IMG/VR virus record: IMGVR_UViG_3300028025_002789
Coordinates: 33,729 to 97,728 of that record
DNA from: a virus
Strand: one strand, 5' to 3'
DNA: 64,000 nucleotides
Part shown: positions 26,666 through 60,534 of the stretch, piece after piece
How the letters are laid out: each line of letters begins with the position of its first letter
How positions within the stretch are numbered: position 1 is the first letter of the stretch
Translations under genes and position numbers: made by a program
The notes under the pieces: model-generated
The model's database searches: none
Seen by the model: only the letters and a program-made list of their open reading frames with translations
What the model was told of the DNA's origin: nothing

Positions 26666-27466
26666 ATGAGTAACGATTTAAAATGGATGCTATCTTCAGA
26701 TCAGCAGTTTCCATATCAAGATGATAAGATGATTGCCCTGTGGTTTAAAGTCATGAAATGGTTTAAGCCAGACGTAGTTGACTACCTTGGAGATACAGAT
26801 GATCAGGCATGCTATAGCAAATACACGGAAGGTAAGTCAGCAGAGTTTTTAAACTATCATAAGAGTGATAGTAAAGATTTAATTGTTCCAATGATGCGCC
26901 ATGAAGCAAAGGGTGCAAGGGATTTTTATGCTAAGACAAGAGAGATGTTGCCAGATGCACAATTATTTTCAGCATTAGGTAATCACGATATTAGAATATT
27001 TAATTATGTAGACGCAAAGCTTCCAGAATATATTTCTGAGGTAACACCAGAGTCCATGTGGAGCTTAGATTCATTAGGATATGAATATATTTATTACAAT
27101 GAATTACCAAAGAGACGTTTTGGAGACATTCACGTACATCACGGACTTTCAATTGCAGCAGGTGGAGCAGTAAGAAAAGACATGGAAGATCTACAAATAT
27201 CTTTAATACGTGGGCACTCACATAGAATTGCTTCACATATGGTAACCTATGAGCTTAGAAATAATGGAGAAGGCGAAACACTTCGTGGCTACGAAATTGG
27301 TCACATGTGTGACGAAAAGAGTGACGGAATGAAATATAGCCAACACCATGATTGGCAAAAGGGATTTGCAGTTGCTCACATTGTAAATGATTACCCACAT
27401 ATTCAAATGATTCACATTGCCCCAGATTACTCATGCGTTGTGGATGGAAAAGTATTCACGCTATGA
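26666..27466 (+). CDS. Calcineurin-like metallophosphoesterase
   Basis: 266 residues. The family's metal-binding motifs are in order: SSDQQFP (the usual D-x-H is D-x-Q here), YLGDTDD, SALGNHD, VHHG and RGHSHR. It should hydrolyse phosphoester bonds in nucleotides or nucleic acids using two metal ions. It opens the replication block and ends overlapping the next gene. The replaced first His is notable but other motifs are intact. ATG 26666 is preferred because the GTG at 26639 lies inside a terminator stem. Confidence 0.75.
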   Translation: MSNDLKWMLSSDQQFPYQDDKMIALWFKVMKWFKPDVVDYLGDTDDQACYSKYTEGKSAEFLNYHKSDSKDLIVPMMRHEAKGARDFYAKTREMLPDAQLFSALGNHDIRIFNYVDAKLPEYISEVTPESMWSLDSLGYEYIYYNELPKRRFGDIHVHHGLSIAAGGAVRKDMEDLQISLIRGHSHRIASHMVTYELRNNGEGETLRGYEIGHMCDEKSDGMKYSQHHDWQKGFAVAHIVNDYPHIQMIHIAPDYSCVVDGKVFTL

Positions 27467-27651
27467 TGAAATGTCAGAGATGTAAGGGCAGAGTATTTAT
27501 TGATAGAGTGTTTTCACAAAAATTACATATAGAACTTTTCTGCATATTGTGTGGAAAACGATGGATGATCAACAAAGAATTGAATGCATTTGCCAAATGG
27601 TTAGATCAAAACGACAGAGAACACGCAAAAAATTACTCTATTTCTTCTTAA
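27463..27651 (+). CDS. Small zinc-ribbon protein
   Basis: 62 residues with two CxxC knuckles, CQRC and CILC, spaced as in a zinc ribbon, then a basic helix. ATG codons at 27463 and 27466 both overlap the previous stop. Probably binds nucleic acid or protein. Confidence 0.55.
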   Translation: MMKCQRCKGRVFIDRVFSQKLHIELFCILCGKRWMINKELNAFAKWLDQNDREHAKNYSISS

Positions 27652-28079
27652 ACGGGAAGATACATAAAGTAATTAGAACATCAAAAGCTAGGGATGAGCT
27701 AGTTGCTTGGTGCTACCCAGATAAAAAAAGAGTTATGTATGCCTATTCTCAGGTAAAAAAGAATATGGGTAATGCTTACTCTATTAAAAATGTATGCGAA
27801 ATCTTAAATAGGCACAGAGTTACGGTAGAAGAATATATTCTTCAGGGCAAAATTAAAGAGCCTCAGAGAGTTTATCCTATTAGTAACCCAGACTCAACAT
27901 GGTATAAGTTTATGTTTAGCGAGTCCGATATATACGATTTGCACCAATTTATACTAGATGCTGGCTATACAAAAGATTTTCCATCTAAGGCAGAATTGAC
28001 TGCTCTTCTCAAACACAACTTAATATTGTATACTAAGACAGACGAGGGTAGCTTCGTACCAGTATGGAAGGCGGAATAA
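27561..28079 (+). CDS. Putative helix-turn-helix DNA-binding protein
   Basis: About 172 residues. The segment AYSIKNVCEILNRHRVTVEEYI looks like the helix-turn-helix of MerR/excisionase proteins, and FSESDIYDLHQFIL follows as in such domains. The start is unsure: ATG 27561 or 27597 both overlap the zinc-ribbon gene, in a different frame. Ends in TAATG overlap with the next gene. Could regulate replication genes or act at the origin. Confidence 0.55.
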   Translation: MDDQQRIECICQMVRSKRQRTRKKLLYFFLNGKIHKVIRTSKARDELVAWCYPDKKRVMYAYSQVKKNMGNAYSIKNVCEILNRHRVTVEEYILQGKIKEPQRVYPISNPDSTWYKFMFSESDIYDLHQFILDAGYTKDFPSKAELTALLKHNLILYTKTDEGSFVPVWKAE

Positions 28080-28285
28080 TGGCAGAGACTAGAGTAAAGG
28101 TAGATCTTTCTTTTACTAGAAATCTTGGTAACTACGAGAGTATCAAGATAGGTATTGGTATTGAGGATGATATTAGGCATGGAGAAAATGTTGATACTGC
28201 AACAGAAAGAGTTTATAAGTTTGTAGAAGAAAAGCTTATTCAAAAAACTCGTGAGGTAGAGGAAGAATTAAAGCATGGCAAATAA
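28079..28285 (+). CDS. Small conserved protein, unknown function
   Basis: 68 residues: strand, loop, long helix (VYKFVEEKLIQKTREVEEEL). Begins MAETRVKVDLSFTRNL. It overlaps neighbours at both ends and lies just upstream of the helicase gene, so a replication role is likely but unproven. Confidence 0.55.
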   Translation: MAETRVKVDLSFTRNLGNYESIKIGIGIEDDIRHGENVDTATERVYKFVEEKLIQKTREVEEELKHGK

Positions 28286-45003: not shown

Positions 45004-47475
45004 TTGACTAGAAAAGCTAAACTTTTATTATTCAGCCTGATTGTATTGGGCTGGCTATCATTTTCTGTACCAGATTATGCTAATGCAACTGGAGACGGAA
45101 GTCAGGAACAGGTAGTAGTAAGTCCAGCACAACAGGCGGTAAACTCAGCTCTTGGAACAGCTACTACAGAAGTACAGCAAGCCATAAATGCAACTGAAAA
45201 TTCTGCAACTGAAATAACACAGGCTCAAACAGAATTATCTCAAGCTCAGGCTGCAGTATCAGGATTATCATCAGCAGTATCTACAGCACAAACAAGTGTT
45301 AATAATGTTCAAAGTGCTATTAATAATATTAACGGTGTTGATTTAACAGTAACTCCAGTAGATCAAAGTTCTCAATTAGTACAAGATGCTAAGGCAACTG
45401 TAATTAATGCTCAAACAGCAATTAATAATATTAATACAACTACTGCCCAAACAGAAATTTCTCAAACAACTACAGCAAGATCAGAAGCGGTTACTGCTCA
45501 AGCAACCGCACAAACAGAATTAACTCAAGCAAACATTGCTATTGATGCTGCTCAAACTGCAGTAAATAATTTACAGTCAACTATTGGAACAACCGTCAAC
45601 GTTTTGGCTGGAGTAGACGATGCTGGTGTTCAAATGAATCTTCCATTTGGAATGCAAATGGGTGGAACTGTTTATAATAATGTATTTGTCGGATCAAATG
45701 CAACAATAACATTTGGAAGTAATGAGGGGAATGTATATTGGGATACACCAGGAGCACCTTCTATATCTATTGCTGGCTGGGACTGGACTACTTGGAGCAC
45801 AGGAACTGGAATTACATATTCAACTACTGGAACAAGCCTAGATGTTGCTTGGGACTTAAGACCTTATCCACAACAGGATGCTTCTACACAAATGGTTCAA
45901 ATTAGATTTAATGCTGATGTTAATCCAAATGACGGAGCATGGATGGCAAACGTAACCGCAGTTGGACCAATACCAGGCGGAGCAAGATTTAATTATAGAG
46001 AAACAACAAATGGCGCTATCACACCAATTACAGATACTAATACTGGTACTGGATTTGCTGGACAAATAAGTCAGGGGTCAACATTTACTCCATATGTAAA
46101 TCCAAATACTTCAGCAGTTCAGGCTGCCGTAGATGCAGCAAATGCAACTATTACTCAACTTAATCAAAGTCTTTCTCCAGTTGTTGCTCAAAATGCATTA
46201 AATAATTCTGCAATAAATGCTATCAATACAACATCACTGACCAATACAGTTAACTCTGCAATATCAACAAAGAATGCTTTGCAAACAACATTAAATACAA
46301 GGTCATCTCAGTTAACTACTGCTATTAATAATAATATTCCAACTCCAGCACCAATAATTGGCGAAGCGGAAATTAATGGAACTTCAATATCTATTCCAGT
46401 GAGTATGCCAGAAGGATATTCTGCTGGAACTTGGTACTATCAAGTTGAATTAGTTGGAGTTTCTGCTTCTAATCCATATGTAGTCGGAACAAGTATTGCA
46501 ACTGGATCGTCTGAATTGATTGAGCTAGAAGGATTAACTGAAGGTGCAACATATACAATTAGTATAGCGAATTCAAGTGGTGCAGTTAGTGCGTATACAT
46601 CTACAACAGTATCTATACCTGCATCACAAAGTTCAAACTTAACTGGTGGAGGAATATCAGAGCCACCCGCAGAAGAGCCACCAGCAGAAGAACCACCTGC
46701 AGAAGAACCACCAGCAGAAGAACCACCTGCAGAAGAACCACCAGCAGAAGAACCACCTGCAGAAGAACCACCTGCAGAAGAACCACCTGCAGAAGAACCA
46801 CCTGCTGAAGAACCACCTGCAGAAGAACCACCTGCAGAAGAACCACCTGCTGAAGAACCACCTGCTGAAGAACCACCTGCTGAAGAAATGTCGGTAGAAG
46901 AAATAGTTGAAGTGGTTGAAAATCTTATTGCAGACGGAAACCTAACAGCATCAGATGCAGAAGCTGTACTTGAATCTTTATCTGCAGACGGTGAAATTAC
47001 TTCTGAAGAAGTAAATAATTTATCAGATGCATTAACTGAAGACGGTACATTCACACTAGCAGAAAAAGAATTAGTTGCAGATGCACTAGTAGAGTCATCG
47101 GAAGGCGCTCCAATTGCAGCAGCAGACATTGCTGCTGCGGGACTTGAATATCGTGATCTTCCACCACAAATTCCAGTAGAAGTTAGAGAAGATGCTAACG
47201 GTAATCCAGTAGTTATTACAGCCGAAGTTGCATCAGCATTATTAACATTAGAATCTCCAGCAGCACTTGTTAACGCAATTGCTGGATGCTTTAATCCAGA
47301 AGAAGCAATTGAAGGATTAACAGAAGAACAAAAGTGTGAATTGGGCAAAGCTTTAGCAAATATTGGTGCTGACATGAGCCCAGAAGAAAGACAAGACGCT
47401 AAAGAAATTTTAGTGGCAGCAATTTTAGTTGGCCAAGTAATCCTTGGTAGTTCAATTCTGAGAATAAGGGGGTAA
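45004..47475 (+). CDS. Secreted protein with Glu-Glu-Pro-Pro-Ala repeats and C-terminal hydrophobic segment
   Basis: 823 residues, starting at TTG 45004 with AGGAG 8 nt upstream. Signal peptide at 1-27 (ending PDYANA). Two helical regions rich in Ala/Gln/Thr (about 30-200 and 370-450), a beta-rich lectin/adhesin-like domain about 205-350 (GMQMGGTVYNNVFVGSNA), a fibronectin-like domain about 455-540, then roughly 15 EEPPA repeats (46660-46887), an acidic helical part, and a C-terminal hydrophobic helix. A cell-surface or virion-associated adhesin is inferred. It is next to the lysis genes. Confidence 0.65.
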   Translation: MTRKAKLLLFSLIVLGWLSFSVPDYANATGDGSQEQVVVSPAQQAVNSALGTATTEVQQAINATENSATEITQAQTELSQAQAAVSGLSSAVSTAQTSVNNVQSAINNINGVDLTVTPVDQSSQLVQDAKATVINAQTAINNINTTTAQTEISQTTTARSEAVTAQATAQTELTQANIAIDAAQTAVNNLQSTIGTTVNVLAGVDDAGVQMNLPFGMQMGGTVYNNVFVGSNATITFGSNEGNVYWDTPGAPSISIAGWDWTTWSTGTGITYSTTGTSLDVAWDLRPYPQQDASTQMVQIRFNADVNPNDGAWMANVTAVGPIPGGARFNYRETTNGAITPITDTNTGTGFAGQISQGSTFTPYVNPNTSAVQAAVDAANATITQLNQSLSPVVAQNALNNSAINAINTTSLTNTVNSAISTKNALQTTLNTRSSQLTTAINNNIPTPAPIIGEAEINGTSISIPVSMPEGYSAGTWYYQVELVGVSASNPYVVGTSIATGSSELIELEGLTEGATYTISIANSSGAVSAYTSTTVSIPASQSSNLTGGGISEPPAEEPPAEEPPAEEPPAEEPPAEEPPAEEPPAEEPPAEEPPAEEPPAEEPPAEEPPAEEPPAEEPPAEEPPAEEMSVEEIVEVVENLIADGNLTASDAEAVLESLSADGEITSEEVNNLSDALTEDGTFTLAEKELVADALVESSEGAPIAAADIAAAGLEYRDLPPQIPVEVREDANGNPVVITAEVASALLTLESPAALVNAIAGCFNPEEAIEGLTEEQKCELGKALANIGADMSPEERQDAKEILVAAILVGQVILGSSILRIRG

Positions 47476-51564: not shown

Positions 51565-52134
51565 ATGACCTGTATTGTTGCTTTAGTCCATGAAAATAAG
51601 GTGTTGCTTGGCGGAGACGCATCAGCATCTGATGAAAAGTCTGGTTTAATTTTCCAAAGAAACGATCCAAAGGTTTTTAAAGTTGGTCAATTTGGGATAG
51701 GATTTGTTGACAGTTTTAGAATGGGACAAATACTACAATATAACTGGACACCACCATTATACAAAGCAACTGCAGGATTTAAAAATTTAGATAAGTTTAT
51801 GCGTACTAAGTTTATTGAATCTATTAAAGAAACATTTCAAGAGCATGGGTACGGAAAGTTTGGGTCAAGCGCACCAGAGGATGGCGATGAAGGCGGAGTA
51901 TTTATAATCACGGTTCAAGGCTCTGGAAGAATATTTGTAATGGATACAGACTTCCATATTGGAGAAGCAGACGTTGCTTTCATGGCAGAAGGAAGTGGAC
52001 AACAGCTAGCTCTTGGATCACTATACTCTACTGGATTAATTAAAACTCCTCGTAAGCGTGTTAGAATGGCTCTAGAGGCAGCAGCTAAATTTAATATGGC
52101 CGTAAGAGGCCCCTTTACAATCATAGAGGTTTAG
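51565..52134 (+). CDS. Proteasome beta-like Ntn hydrolase, copy 1
   Basis: 189 residues beginning M-T-C-I-V. After removal of Met1, Thr2 would be the nucleophile; Asp18 (LLGGD) and Lys36 (DPKVFKV) sit at the spacing of proteasome/HslV catalytic residues Thr1, Asp17 and Lys33. The C-terminal SGQQLALGSL matches the family's Ser-Gly segment. It has no prosegment. It may form its own ring or pair with copy 2 (58109-58642). The host proteasome or pupylation pathway is a possible target. Leaderless-type promoter upstream. Confidence 0.75.
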   Translation: MTCIVALVHENKVLLGGDASASDEKSGLIFQRNDPKVFKVGQFGIGFVDSFRMGQILQYNWTPPLYKATAGFKNLDKFMRTKFIESIKETFQEHGYGKFGSSAPEDGDEGGVFIITVQGSGRIFVMDTDFHIGEADVAFMAEGSGQQLALGSLYSTGLIKTPRKRVRMALEAAAKFNMAVRGPFTIIEV

Positions 52135-52564: not shown

Positions 52565-53497
52565 ATGAACAAAAAACTAATAGCGGCTCTAGTAGCCACA
52601 GCAATATCTTTACCAACATTCGCTAATTCTGCGAAAGCTGAGAATCAACCTGCACCTACGATTGCAATCCTAGACACAGCACTTGATTCTTCTCTGTCTT
52701 TATTTAAAGATAGAATTATTCATGAAGCATGTGTAGTTCAATGGAACTCCTGCCCAAACGGACTTAGCGTTATGGAAGGTCCAGGATCGGCATCTATGCC
52801 ATCACAATTCATTTCTAAAAATGGATTTGAGCATGGAACACAAATGGCTTCTTTAGCAGTAAAAACAAACATGACTGTTAAAATTGTATTTGTAAGAGTT
52901 ATTGGGTCAACATCTAATGGAGCGAGACAAAGTGCTGGAGAGCAAACTGTATTCAATGCTTTAGATTGGGTTATTGCCAATAAAGATAAGTTTAATATTC
53001 AAGCAGTATCAATGTCGCAGTCTCATCATAATTTGGGATTAGCTGGAACAGATTACTGCCCAAAGACACCAAACACTGAAGCCAGAATTAAGTCATTGGC
53101 TGCTAGCGGAATTCCAGTATTTTTCCCAGCAGGTAATGGAAGAGACTATCAAAGAATTGATTGGCCAGCATGTATTCCATCTTCAATTGCAATTGGTGCC
53201 ACAATGCCAACAAAAGAAGTTGCAATCTATTCAAACTTTGATTCTAAATTGGTAGATTTCTTTGCAGAAGGAACAACACGAGCATTAAATCCAGGTGGAT
53301 CTATTGTTAACGTTGCTGGAACATCTGCTTCTACTGTTACTGCAGCCACTTCATGGGCTACATTAAAAAGTTTAAAGCCAAATCTTAGTTACTCAGAAAT
53401 TTATGATATTTTATCTAAGACATCATTGCCAACTAAGAATTCAAAGGTTTCTGGCGGAAAACTAATTGATTTATCAAAGGCTATCAATGGCCAATAA
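52565..53497 (+). CDS. Secreted subtilisin-like serine protease (S8)
   Basis: 310 residues. Signal peptide 1-25 (ending SAKA). Catalytic Asp37 (AILDTALD), His90 (FEHGTQMAS), oxyanion Asn191 (FPAGNG), Ser254 (VAGTSAST). Cys residues at 56, 63, 165 and 203 could form disulphides. It would act outside the cell or in the envelope, for example on host surface proteins, rival phage receptors, or in nutrition of the infected host. It has a strong dedicated promoter and no long propeptide. Confidence 0.85.
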   Translation: MNKKLIAALVATAISLPTFANSAKAENQPAPTIAILDTALDSSLSLFKDRIIHEACVVQWNSCPNGLSVMEGPGSASMPSQFISKNGFEHGTQMASLAVKTNMTVKIVFVRVIGSTSNGARQSAGEQTVFNALDWVIANKDKFNIQAVSMSQSHHNLGLAGTDYCPKTPNTEARIKSLAASGIPVFFPAGNGRDYQRIDWPACIPSSIAIGATMPTKEVAIYSNFDSKLVDFFAEGTTRALNPGGSIVNVAGTSASTVTAATSWATLKSLKPNLSYSEIYDILSKTSLPTKNSKVSGGKLIDLSKAINGQ

Positions 53498-57443: not shown

Positions 57444-58112
57444 TTGAAAAAAACTTTAGCTATTGCTTTATGCGATAATGGGCACGTCGACAGTAAATTT
57501 TTAGACGGAATCCTATCAATTATTGTATATATGAATTCAGTTGATTCCAAAGTAGTTTTTGACGGATTAATGCACGTTACTGGGAGCCAAATTGCTCAAC
57601 AAAGACAAACAGCCATAGAATCTTGGTATAAAAATGCTCAATCAGATATGCTTTTATGGCTAGATTCAGATGTTGTAATTAATCAAGAAGTGTTTAAAAA
57701 GCTAATAGATTCTATAGATGAGACAGATAGACCAATAGTTAGCGGTGTTTATTTTATATCTCCAAATCAATATGAAACTATGGCTGACCCATACCCTGCA
57801 ATATTTACAGACGACGGGAATAAAAACACCTCTATTCATCCTCTTCCAGTAAATCAACTAATAAAAATTGATGCAGCTGGATTTGGATTTCTTTTAATGC
57901 ACAGATCTGCGGTTAAAAAATTAATAGAGTCAGAAGACAGCCTATTTGACGTAACCTTTGGTAAAATAAATTTAGGAGAAGATATTTCCTTTTTTAGAAA
58001 AGCAAAAAAGAATGGGATTCCAGTATATGCACACACAGGAGCATTGGCTGGACATATGAAAAGATTTAACCTAGATATAAATTATTATAAGAATCGGTGG
58101 ATTAATAAATGA
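57444..58112 (+). CDS. Glycosyltransferase (GT-A type)
   Basis: 222 residues, TTG start. Contains LLWLDSDVVIN (D-x-D metal/sugar nucleotide site), an N-terminal IALCDNG strand and AAGFGFLLMHR, typical of phage GT-A family enzymes. It could glycosylate virion or phage DNA bases, or modify host surface. Overlaps the second Ntn hydrolase gene by 4 nt. Confidence 0.65.
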   Translation: MKKTLAIALCDNGHVDSKFLDGILSIIVYMNSVDSKVVFDGLMHVTGSQIAQQRQTAIESWYKNAQSDMLLWLDSDVVINQEVFKKLIDSIDETDRPIVSGVYFISPNQYETMADPYPAIFTDDGNKNTSIHPLPVNQLIKIDAAGFGFLLMHRSAVKKLIESEDSLFDVTFGKINLGEDISFFRKAKKNGIPVYAHTGALAGHMKRFNLDINYYKNRWINK

Positions 58113-58642
58113 CAACAATTGTTGGAATTCAAGGTGACGGCTGGACTGTCATGGCTGCAGATAGTCAGATAACAGATGAAAACTCTAAAATAATTAGTCC
58201 ACAGACTCCAAAAATTATTAAGTTTAATGGTATATTGATTGGCTTACGTGGAGATGCGAGGCCTGGAGACATCGTTTCATACAACTGGACCCCACCAAAA
58301 ATTGTTGGTGATCCACAAAAATGGGTTGTTTCTAAAATGATTCCCTCAATGATAAAGGCATTTGATAAATTTGGTTACGACTGGAAAGATAAAGAGTCTG
58401 AATTTAACTTCTTGGTGTCTGTAAAGTCACAACTATTTGATATTGGTTCAGACATGTCTATAAGCAGATCTCAGTATAACATGTATGCCGCTGGAAGCGG
58501 TAAAGACTTAGCTTTAGGATATATGGCGGGACAGCCATGGGATAATATAGAAGAGGCAGAGCAGGTTGCAATAGAGGCAATAGCCACTGCATCTATATTT
58601 GATATACATACAAGTGAGCCGATACAGGTTGAAATTGGATGA
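58109..58642 (+). CDS. Proteasome beta-like Ntn hydrolase, copy 2
   Basis: 177 residues beginning M-T-T-I-V. Thr2 as nucleophile, Asp18 (VMAADS) and Lys35 (PQTPKIIK) match the proteasome Thr1-Asp17-Lys33 triad; AAGSGKDLALGYM matches the Ser-Gly segment near the C terminus. Divergent from copy 1 but same layout and similar BxYNWTPP core. It overlaps the glycosyltransferase gene and precedes the GroES-like gene by two small genes. Could process phage or host proteins as a small ring. Confidence 0.75.
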   Translation: MTTIVGIQGDGWTVMAADSQITDENSKIISPQTPKIIKFNGILIGLRGDARPGDIVSYNWTPPKIVGDPQKWVVSKMIPSMIKAFDKFGYDWKDKESEFNFLVSVKSQLFDIGSDMSISRSQYNMYAAGSGKDLALGYMAGQPWDNIEEAEQVAIEAIATASIFDIHTSEPIQVEIG

Positions 58643-58812: not shown

Positions 58813-58952
58813 TGGGAAAGAATGGCCCTAAGCCAAAAGTACCTATGAATACAACTATTATAAGAGATGGTCGTATAGTAAGAATTAGAAAAGATGGAAC
58901 CGTAAAGGCTGACCTTGGCCCTTATGCTCAAAAACCACAGAAGAGTAAATAA
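58812..58952 (+). CDS. Small basic protein
   Basis: 46 residues, basic, with TTIIRDGRIVRIRKDGT. Ends overlapping the GroES-like ATG (TAATG). Function unknown. Confidence 0.5.
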   Translation: MGKNGPKPKVPMNTTIIRDGRIVRIRKDGTVKADLGPYAQKPQKSK

Positions 58953-59263
58953 TGATTAAGCCAATTGGCGCAATGCTTTTAGTTAAAGAAAATGAAGTAA
59001 CAGATAAGAAAACCACAAGCGGATTAGTTATTTCAGCAGCTTTTGCAGATGTTGGCCCCAAGAGTGGCAAAGTAATAGACATTGGCGATGGCGAATATAA
59101 CTATAAAGGTGATCTAATTCCTGTTAATGGAATAGACATTGGTGATACTGTATTCTATCAGGATCATAGCGGAACTGATATAGAAGATGAAGATAACACA
59201 AAGTACCTACTTATAAATGCTAAGAATATATTAGCCATAAAGGTAGAGAATCCTACAGAATAA
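58952..59263 (+). CDS. groES: GroES-like co-chaperonin
   Basis: 103 residues with the Cpn10 layout: KPIGAMLLVKENEV, a mobile loop region TTSGLVI, GKVIDIGDG, the roof loop, IGDTVFYQDHSG and a C-terminal YLLINAKNILAIK. It would form the lid of host GroEL, as T4 Gp31 does, to fold the phage capsid protein. No GroEL gene is in the window. Its own operon context includes a second proteasome-like gene and cobalamin genes. Confidence 0.8.
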   Translation: MIKPIGAMLLVKENEVTDKKTTSGLVISAAFADVGPKSGKVIDIGDGEYNYKGDLIPVNGIDIGDTVFYQDHSGTDIEDEDNTKYLLINAKNILAIKVENPTE

Positions 59264-59271
59264 TATACAAT

Positions 59272-59403
59272 ATGTTTAATAGATTGAAGTGTATGTATAA
59301 AGGTCATAGCCTAAAACAGGCTGGCACATGTCCGTATACAGGATCAACATATGATTTCTGTGAAAGATGTGATTATATGATACCAAGAGAAATGGCAGAG
59401 TAA
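59272..59403 (+). CDS. Small cysteine-rich protein (DUF1660-like)
   Basis: 43 residues with KCMYKGHSL, TCPYTGS and CERCDYM, giving about four zinc ligands, similar to DUF1660-type phage proteins. Overlaps the next start by one base. Confidence 0.5.
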   Translation: MFNRLKCMYKGHSLKQAGTCPYTGSTYDFCERCDYMIPREMAE

Positions 59404-59855
59404 TGAAAAAAATAATAACTATATTAGTTTCTGTTGTCTTAGTAATGAGTATTTTTACAGTCATAAATAAGTCAAACAACGGATGTGCCACTGTTTATGT
59501 AGACTATGGTAAATTAAATAATGGCTTAAAAGAAACAAAATGCATTGATATATATGGCAGTACAGACGCCTTATCGCTTTTGAGCAAAGCTAACTATATA
59601 ATAGAAGGTACCAGAGAGTACGGTCAGGCTGTAGTCTGTAGAGTTAATGGGTTGCCAGACAAGTCTGTTGAAAGTTGTGACGTTATGCCACCAGCAAAGG
59701 CATATTGGGCGGTCATAATAAAGAAAAATCAAACTGTTCCACTTATCCCTAATGAATGGGGATGGGCACAAAAGGGAATTAACGAAACTTATTTATCTCC
59801 AGGAGACAAAATAGGCCTAGTATTTTCCACAGAGGAGGAAGTAAGATGGCCTTAA
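59403..59855 (+). CDS. Secreted/membrane-anchored DUF4430 (transcobalamin-like) protein
   Basis: 150 residues. N-terminal hydrophobic anchor (IITILVSVVLVMSIFTVI). The rest has EGTREYGQAVVCRVNG, KAYWAVIIKKN and YLSPGDKIGLVF, which fits DUF4430, the transcobalamin C-terminal-like fold known in B12-binding and other secreted proteins. Two cysteines may pair. It precedes a cobalamin adenosyltransferase by one small gene, which strengthens the B12 link. The match is a pattern call. Confidence 0.55.
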   Translation: MKKIITILVSVVLVMSIFTVINKSNNGCATVYVDYGKLNNGLKETKCIDIYGSTDALSLLSKANYIIEGTREYGQAVVCRVNGLPDKSVESCDVMPPAKAYWAVIIKKNQTVPLIPNEWGWAQKGINETYLSPGDKIGLVFSTEEEVRWP

Positions 59856-59992
59856 GATTATTAGAAAAAGAAATTAAAACAAAAAATAAAGTTTCTGCTG
59901 ATATTGTTTTCCAATTGGCTTTAACTTTATTTGCTTTATACGTAGCCAATAAAATGAGCATAGATCTATGGCGATCTATTAGGGGTCACTAA
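59846..59992 (+). CDS. Short membrane protein
   Basis: 48 residues with one transmembrane helix (VFQLALTLFALYVANK) and basic ends. Perfect AGGAGG ribosome site inside the preceding gene; ATG overlap with adenosyltransferase at its end. Could be a partner of the neighbouring B12 genes. Confidence 0.6.
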   Translation: MALRLLEKEIKTKNKVSADIVFQLALTLFALYVANKMSIDLWRSIRGH

Positions 59993-60534
59993 TGGTTCAT
60001 CTAACTCGTATTTATACTAAAACAGGCGACGACGGAAGCACAGGAATTGCCAATAATGAAAGAGTCTACAAGATATCTCCATTGATAGAGGCTATAGGTT
60101 CAGTAGATGAGGCTAATTCTGCAATTGGAATGTCTGTTGAATACTATAACGACATCATTGAAAGAATACAGAACGATCTGTTTGATCTAGGGGCAGAGCT
60201 TGCTGGATCTGATAAATTCAAAATAACAGATGATAGAATAGAATATCTGGAAAAGGTAATTGACGATTACAATGAATTTCTAGAGCCACTAAGATCGTTT
60301 GTTCTACCTACTGGTTCTTTGCATAACGCTAGAACGGTAGTTAGAAGGGCAGAAAGAGCTGTCTGGATGGTAATTGCAATTCATAATGAAAATGATGTTC
60401 AGATAAGCAAGAACATCCCAAAGTATTTAAATAGACTGTCTGACCTACTATTTGTTATGGCCAGATACCACAATAAGGATAAAGAAAAGTTGTGGGTTCA
60501 ACGAAGGGAAGAAAATGATAGACAAGATAGTTAG
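59992..60534 (+). CDS. Cobalamin adenosyltransferase, PduO type
   Basis: 180 residues. TRIYTKTGDDGSTG at the N terminus is the ATP-binding loop, IEAIGSVDEANSAIG and RTVVRRAERAVW follow, and YLNRLSDLLFVMARYH ends the family pattern. It should transfer adenosyl from ATP to cob(I)alamin, making coenzyme B12. In phages, adenosyl-B12 could serve class II ribonucleotide reductase or host carbon metabolism. Near full family length. Neighbours: transcobalamin-like secreted protein and a small membrane protein. Confidence 0.85.
   Translation: MVHLTRIYTKTGDDGSTGIANNERVYKISPLIEAIGSVDEANSAIGMSVEYYNDIIERIQNDLFDLGAELAGSDKFKITDDRIEYLEKVIDDYNEFLEPLRSFVLPTGSLHNARTVVRRAERAVWMVIAIHNENDVQISKNIPKYLNRLSDLLFVMARYHNKDKEKLWVQRREENDRQDS

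Follow-up and report, generated by a model that had tools for sequence, protein, structure and literature searches.

Three overlapping genes in a phage genome probably form a B12-salvage cassette, in which capture of corrinoid and its adenosylation would feed the phage's own ribonucleotide reductase (RNR), NrdJ. The genes lie in a window of 64,000 nucleotides that spans 33729-97728 of a virus record 97.7 kb long. As the first-pass annotation had described, they form an overlapping string at 59403-60534, and ORF calls recovered all three on the + strand, with overlaps of 10 bases between CapB and the TM gene and of 1 base between the TM gene and PduO (Table 1). In pairs with a measurable dS, dN/dS was 0.02-0.09 for PduO and 0.09-0.38 for CapB, and because these values are low, both are real genes under purifying selection. 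The Cys-rich ORF in front of CapB was the upstream neighbour in this phage's subgroup only, and is no constant part of the cassette.

Table 1. Features of the cassette and its upstream neighbour, in window coordinates
Feature	Position	Strand	Basis
Cys-rich (zinc-ribbon-like) ORF, 43 aa, overlapping the CapB start	59272..59403	+	ORF calls
CapB, 150 aa, secreted/membrane-anchored putative corrinoid-capture protein	59403..59855	+	ORF, family, fold, context
Single-TM peptide, 48 aa, C-terminal WRxxxGH	59846..59992	+	ORF, conserved adjacency, hhalign
PduO-type ATP:cob(I)alamin adenosyltransferase, 180 aa, loop-deleted phage clade	59992..60534	+	HMMs, fold, motifs

Several other genes of this phage deserve mention. 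A GroES (Cpn10) gene (58952-59263) lies just upstream of the cassette, and a gene for SpeD (S-adenosylmethionine decarboxylase, PF02675; 60765-61145), which could bear on polyamine supply, lies just 3' of it; SpeD was also found near the cassette in L022 and L056. The same genome encodes two HslV/proteasome-beta-like proteins, one at 58109-58642 (PF00227 / phrog_1040) and one at 51565-52134 (a weak 20S-beta match). We further noted an 823-aa protein that looks secreted, is rich in Ala/Gln in its N-terminal half, and carries a long PAEEP repeat (45004-47475), a secreted subtilisin-like (S8) protease-like ORF whose HGT and GTSAS motifs were recognized by eye in the translation (52565-53497), and, amid tail-region genes, a flavin-dependent halogenase/monooxygenase-like protein with weak QhpG and CmlS matches (L066:7203-8777; G000:C1 about 26703-28277).

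By its sequence, the product of the third gene is a genuine PduO-type cobalamin adenosyltransferase. The first-pass assignment to this family was borne out by TIGR00636, which scored 158.5 bits against a cut-off of 108.45, and by PF01923 (E=3e-49; 168 bits, cut-off 24). The closest solved relative in a sequence search was the M. tuberculosis PduO (E=2e-36), which the predicted model also matched in Foldseek (E=1.8e-10), and the monomer fold of the model agrees with 6wh5; no PHROG family covers the protein. A chance match or mis-annotation was ruled out by the Pfam and TIGR00636 scores, the solved relative, Foldseek, and dN/dS. Loss of the ATP or corrinoid site residues had been named beforehand as grounds for giving up this reading, and the residues are in place: the equivalents of F103, R114, R118, and E121 are invariant in 15 aligned phage PduOs, R-x3-RRAER is kept, and the ATP-side motif TKTGDDG is likewise invariant. 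Mapped by motif, the equivalents of human F170, R186, R190, and E193 are invariant; F170, R190, and E193 have catalytic-site roles in the human PduO-type enzyme (PMC8633584). Matches to PduO in deposited phage records came mostly from short unannotated Listeria, Enterococcus, and Salmonella records, together with two 254-kb Acinetobacter records, which look like host chromosome.

CapB carries an N-terminal hydrophobic segment and is predicted to be extracytoplasmic. Its relatives comprise 48 viral members, among which C28, C47, C79, and C92 are invariant, and cellular ones. Searches against Pfam and PHROG gave no convincing match, and no relative, annotated or unannotated, was found among 50,697 deposited phage records. 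The first-pass annotation had called this 150-aa protein DUF4430-like and transcobalamin-like. Direct sequence proof of such membership failed: the PF14478 (Pfam DUF4430) profile matched 0 of 24 CapB members, hhalign of CapB to two PF14478 members reached a probability of only 7.6, and a PDB sequence search returned no match, transcobalamin included. At the level of fold, the suggestion fared better, albeit with modest scores. The AF2 model (pLDDT 73) may have a beta-grasp fold with a beta-hairpin insert after the helix; its top Foldseek matches in the PDB were the small secreted protein 3u7z and the beta domain of transcobalamin (prob 0.87-1.0, E at least 5e-3). Transcobalamins made up 13 of the 19 top matches (prob 0.87-0.99), none of them with E <0.001, and TM-scores on the query were a modest 0.38-0.44. 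CapB thus probably acts as a corrinoid binder of the transcobalamin-like kind.

For a transcobalamin-like beta-grasp clade, binding of B12 and further soluble ligands in bacteria has been put forward before (PMC1796856). CapB shares with these transcobalamin-like SLBB/bacterial DUF4430 proteins a B12 gene context and a predicted extracytoplasmic location, and probably also the predicted fold. It differs from them in showing no significant sequence match to PF14478 or transcobalamin, lacks an alpha/alpha toroid, and stands alone as a domain that has four invariant Cys and is partnered by a TM peptide. A weaker likeness was found to the actinobacterial SCO2322 family (NF040672), which matched 11 of 24 aligned CapB members weakly (best E=7.7e-8) but not the window CapB itself; the score for L074 was 21 bits, against a curated cut-off of 85.

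The TM gene adjoins CapB in all 56 viral contigs where both could be seen, and its product has one TM segment. The closest cellular CapB genes, with 34-38% identity over the best segment, belong to Ca. Nanopelagicaceae (acI; L067-L071), and behind CapB of acI comes a TM peptide of 53-56 aa, the end of which reads AWRxW and then three or four more residues (6/6 loci inspected). Profiles of the phage and acI-host peptides aligned in hhalign with a probability of 84.6 (E=6.9e-6), by which the phage peptide is homologous to the small peptide 3' of CapB in acI hosts. These CapB and TM relationships make acI actinobacteria the likely host. A sample of 61 genomes of the order Nanopelagicales contained CapB in 4. 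L072, labelled as a Bifidobacterium breve MAG contig, also has acI-type CapB, TM, and GcvT genes, and is probably a mis-binned Nanopelagicaceae contig.

In acI, an AdoCbl/cobalamin riboswitch directly precedes CapB in all eight loci with upstream sequence (38-63 bits, all above the gathering score). No cobalamin riboswitch was detected at the Rfam gathering score in this phage genome, nor any in ten related phage loci. The phage gene set is apparently related to the B12-regulated CapB-TM pair of the hosts. A host with no use for cobalamin, which would have spoken against the proposal, is not what we found: the likely host clade has AdoCbl riboswitches, its own PduO (5/5 acI genomes tested), and class II NrdJ, the one acI RNR classified being of the dimeric class II type (NF005122, 1572 bits). 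Another 37 cellular CapB loci come from Microbacteriaceae, Arthrobacter, and related groups. Nearby genes include an ECF T-A-A (CbiQ-ABC-ABC) gene in 36 of them, an S-component-like gene in 35, and metH in 25, and a cobalamin riboswitch stands upstream of the region in five. These neighbours are strong contextual evidence for a role of the CapB family in corrinoid uptake. The versions in phages and in acI differ from such actinobacterial ECF transporter/cobalamin-riboswitch operons, in which cellular CapB is housed and metH is often close by, since no ECF genes adjoin them, and the phage version is also free of the riboswitch; with a profile built from other actinobacteria, no S component was found in acI genomes.

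When 2.9 million viral contigs were searched, relatives were found in 57 distinct contigs. The gene order was CapB-TM-PduO in 40, PduO-CapB-TM in six, NrdJ-CapB-TM-PduO in four, and NrdJ-CapB-TM in six; one contig ends inside CapB. Linkage is kept in 56 of 57, the end of the remaining contig cutting CapB, and PduO stands beside CapB-TM in 50. NrdJ lies directly upstream of CapB in ten contigs (L013, L014, L020, L021, L024-L028, and L030), and one more NrdJ 3' end was seen in this place at the contig edge of L016. The settings of the cassette vary, from GroES/HslV/SpeD in this phage to RecA- and SSB-like genes in L036 (recognized by eye) and a place behind SpeD in L022.

The first-pass annotation had also proposed looking for a B12-dependent ribonucleotide reductase elsewhere in the phage, and one is present in the same genome, outside the window (644 aa; G000:C1:13153-15087). 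TIGR02505 matched it with E=4e-91 and 306 bits, somewhat under the curated cut-off of 340 and far ahead of all other RNR classes, and PF21995, the B12-dependent RNR insertion domain, scored 27.6 bits (cut-off 27). On these profile matches, the phage NrdJ is an AdoCbl-dependent ribonucleoside-triphosphate reductase of the class II monomeric family. A close relative, a 37.8-kb contig, has both the cassette and NrdJ. CapB lies within 6 kb in only one of the 80 closest NrdJ loci, and one of 12 large NrdJ records has CapB and PduO. The cassette is an optional add-on to NrdJ, because most NrdJ phages do without it.

A different reading is that the cassette supports the B12 metabolism of the host in general (host NrdJ and MetH) during infection rather than phage NrdJ specifically, the benefit being general host maintenance. 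The RNR of the host is a class II NrdJ as well, 46 of the 57 phage cassettes do not stand beside NrdJ, and no NrdJ was seen in two large CapB records. However, NrdJ directly upstream and in the same gene string in the ten contigs listed above speaks against this, and NrdJ is encoded in 7 of the 9 CapB records of at least 70 kb, the other two being perhaps partial. We therefore regard service to the host at large as unlikely.

The phage PduO departs from its cellular relatives in one respect. Between FVLPTGS and LHNAR, beside the active site, five residues are missing in 14 of 15 aligned phage PduOs, and the spacing from the Phe to the Arg is 11 residues in these 14, against 16 in every full cellular sequence aligned. 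A sequencing error was ruled out as the cause, the deletion being common to 14 of 15 diverse phage PduOs. Since the FxLP...HxAR loop spacing is no formal criterion of the PduO family, we treated the deletion as a within-family variant, and the phage PduOs form a clade with this loop deletion. In sequence, predicted fold, and catalytic motif, they are like other TIGR00636 enzymes, such as Rv1314c of M. tuberculosis and human MMAB, from which they differ by the deletion and by being encoded beside CapB and NrdJ.

The deletion, flanked by the Phe under the corrin and by the Arg helix, could impair catalysis. Hence a second alternative is that the loop-deleted PduO mainly holds or escorts AdoCbl, or acts as a sink for corrinoid, with the host enzyme performing adenosylation and the phage protein delivering the product to NrdJ. 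PduO-type enzymes are known to double as AdoCbl chaperones in human (PMC8633584) and M. tuberculosis (PMC12713380), and the host already encodes a PduO. Against such a role stand the invariant F103, R114, R118, and E121 equivalents and TKTGDDG. Moreover, in two contigs (L020:1977-2549 and L021:2461-3033) the same slot of the cassette is filled by a full-length, host-like PduO that falls outside the main clade of phage enzymes. By sequence it appears that the PduO function was acquired independently there at the same position, and since a host-like enzyme holds the slot, function has been kept and not sequence alone. We consider a mere escort quite improbable.

B12 receptors double as phage receptors in other systems (BtuB), and CapB is predicted to be extracytoplasmic, so CapB-TM might instead block or mask a surface B12 importer, as superinfection exclusion at the receptor or by starving competitors, with the proximity of PduO and NrdJ incidental; this is very improbable, as 56 of 57 contigs link CapB-TM to the B12 genes NrdJ and/or PduO, and the AdoCbl riboswitch before the host homologue is what is expected of uptake genes.

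Under the preferred reading, a cassette for B12 salvage, CapB would be exported, remain at the outside of the host membrane, and bind scarce corrinoid there, and the WRxxxGH membrane peptide would anchor it or link it to an importer of the host. Within the cell, phage PduO together with ATP would convert reduced cobalamin to AdoCbl, which would charge the phage NrdJ and in this way yield dNTPs for phage DNA. The host CapB-TM pair would be controlled by the AdoCbl riboswitch and the phage pair would be feedback-free. Because the latter is without the riboswitch, phage capture would continue in infection even when host AdoCbl is high, and we infer that the cassette benefits the phage during infection. 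A bolder version is possible, and we offer it tentatively: a deregulated, riboswitch-free host CapB-WRxxxGH pair and a streamlined PduO, its loop deletion tuning it to make AdoCbl quickly or to pass it straight to NrdJ, would make up a complete phage route from capture to cofactor to dNTP, and CapB-TM would be a previously undescribed actinobacterial corrinoid-capture system.

Virioplankton and Cobavirus phages that carry class II RTPR (NrdJ) are known (PMC10547690, PMC6775973). Our phage is like them in encoding an AdoCbl-dependent RNR, and hence in its dependence on B12; unlike in those phages, concrete uptake-like and adenosylation genes are here linked to the RNR. Neither a phage capture-plus-adenosylation cassette nor a phage PduO with CapB was reported in the literature searched, which covered a minority of subscription journals.

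Many aquatic phages carry B12-dependent RNRs, and that viruses with such enzymes may enhance B12 uptake has been raised as a speculation, not shown (PMC10547690). The linked capture and adenosylation cassette makes this idea testable in phages of bacteria that rank among the most abundant in fresh water. It further gives CapB, an actinobacterial protein family so far uncharacterised, and its partner peptide a probable B12 role, and it suggests that viruses alter the traffic of vitamin B12 in lakes.
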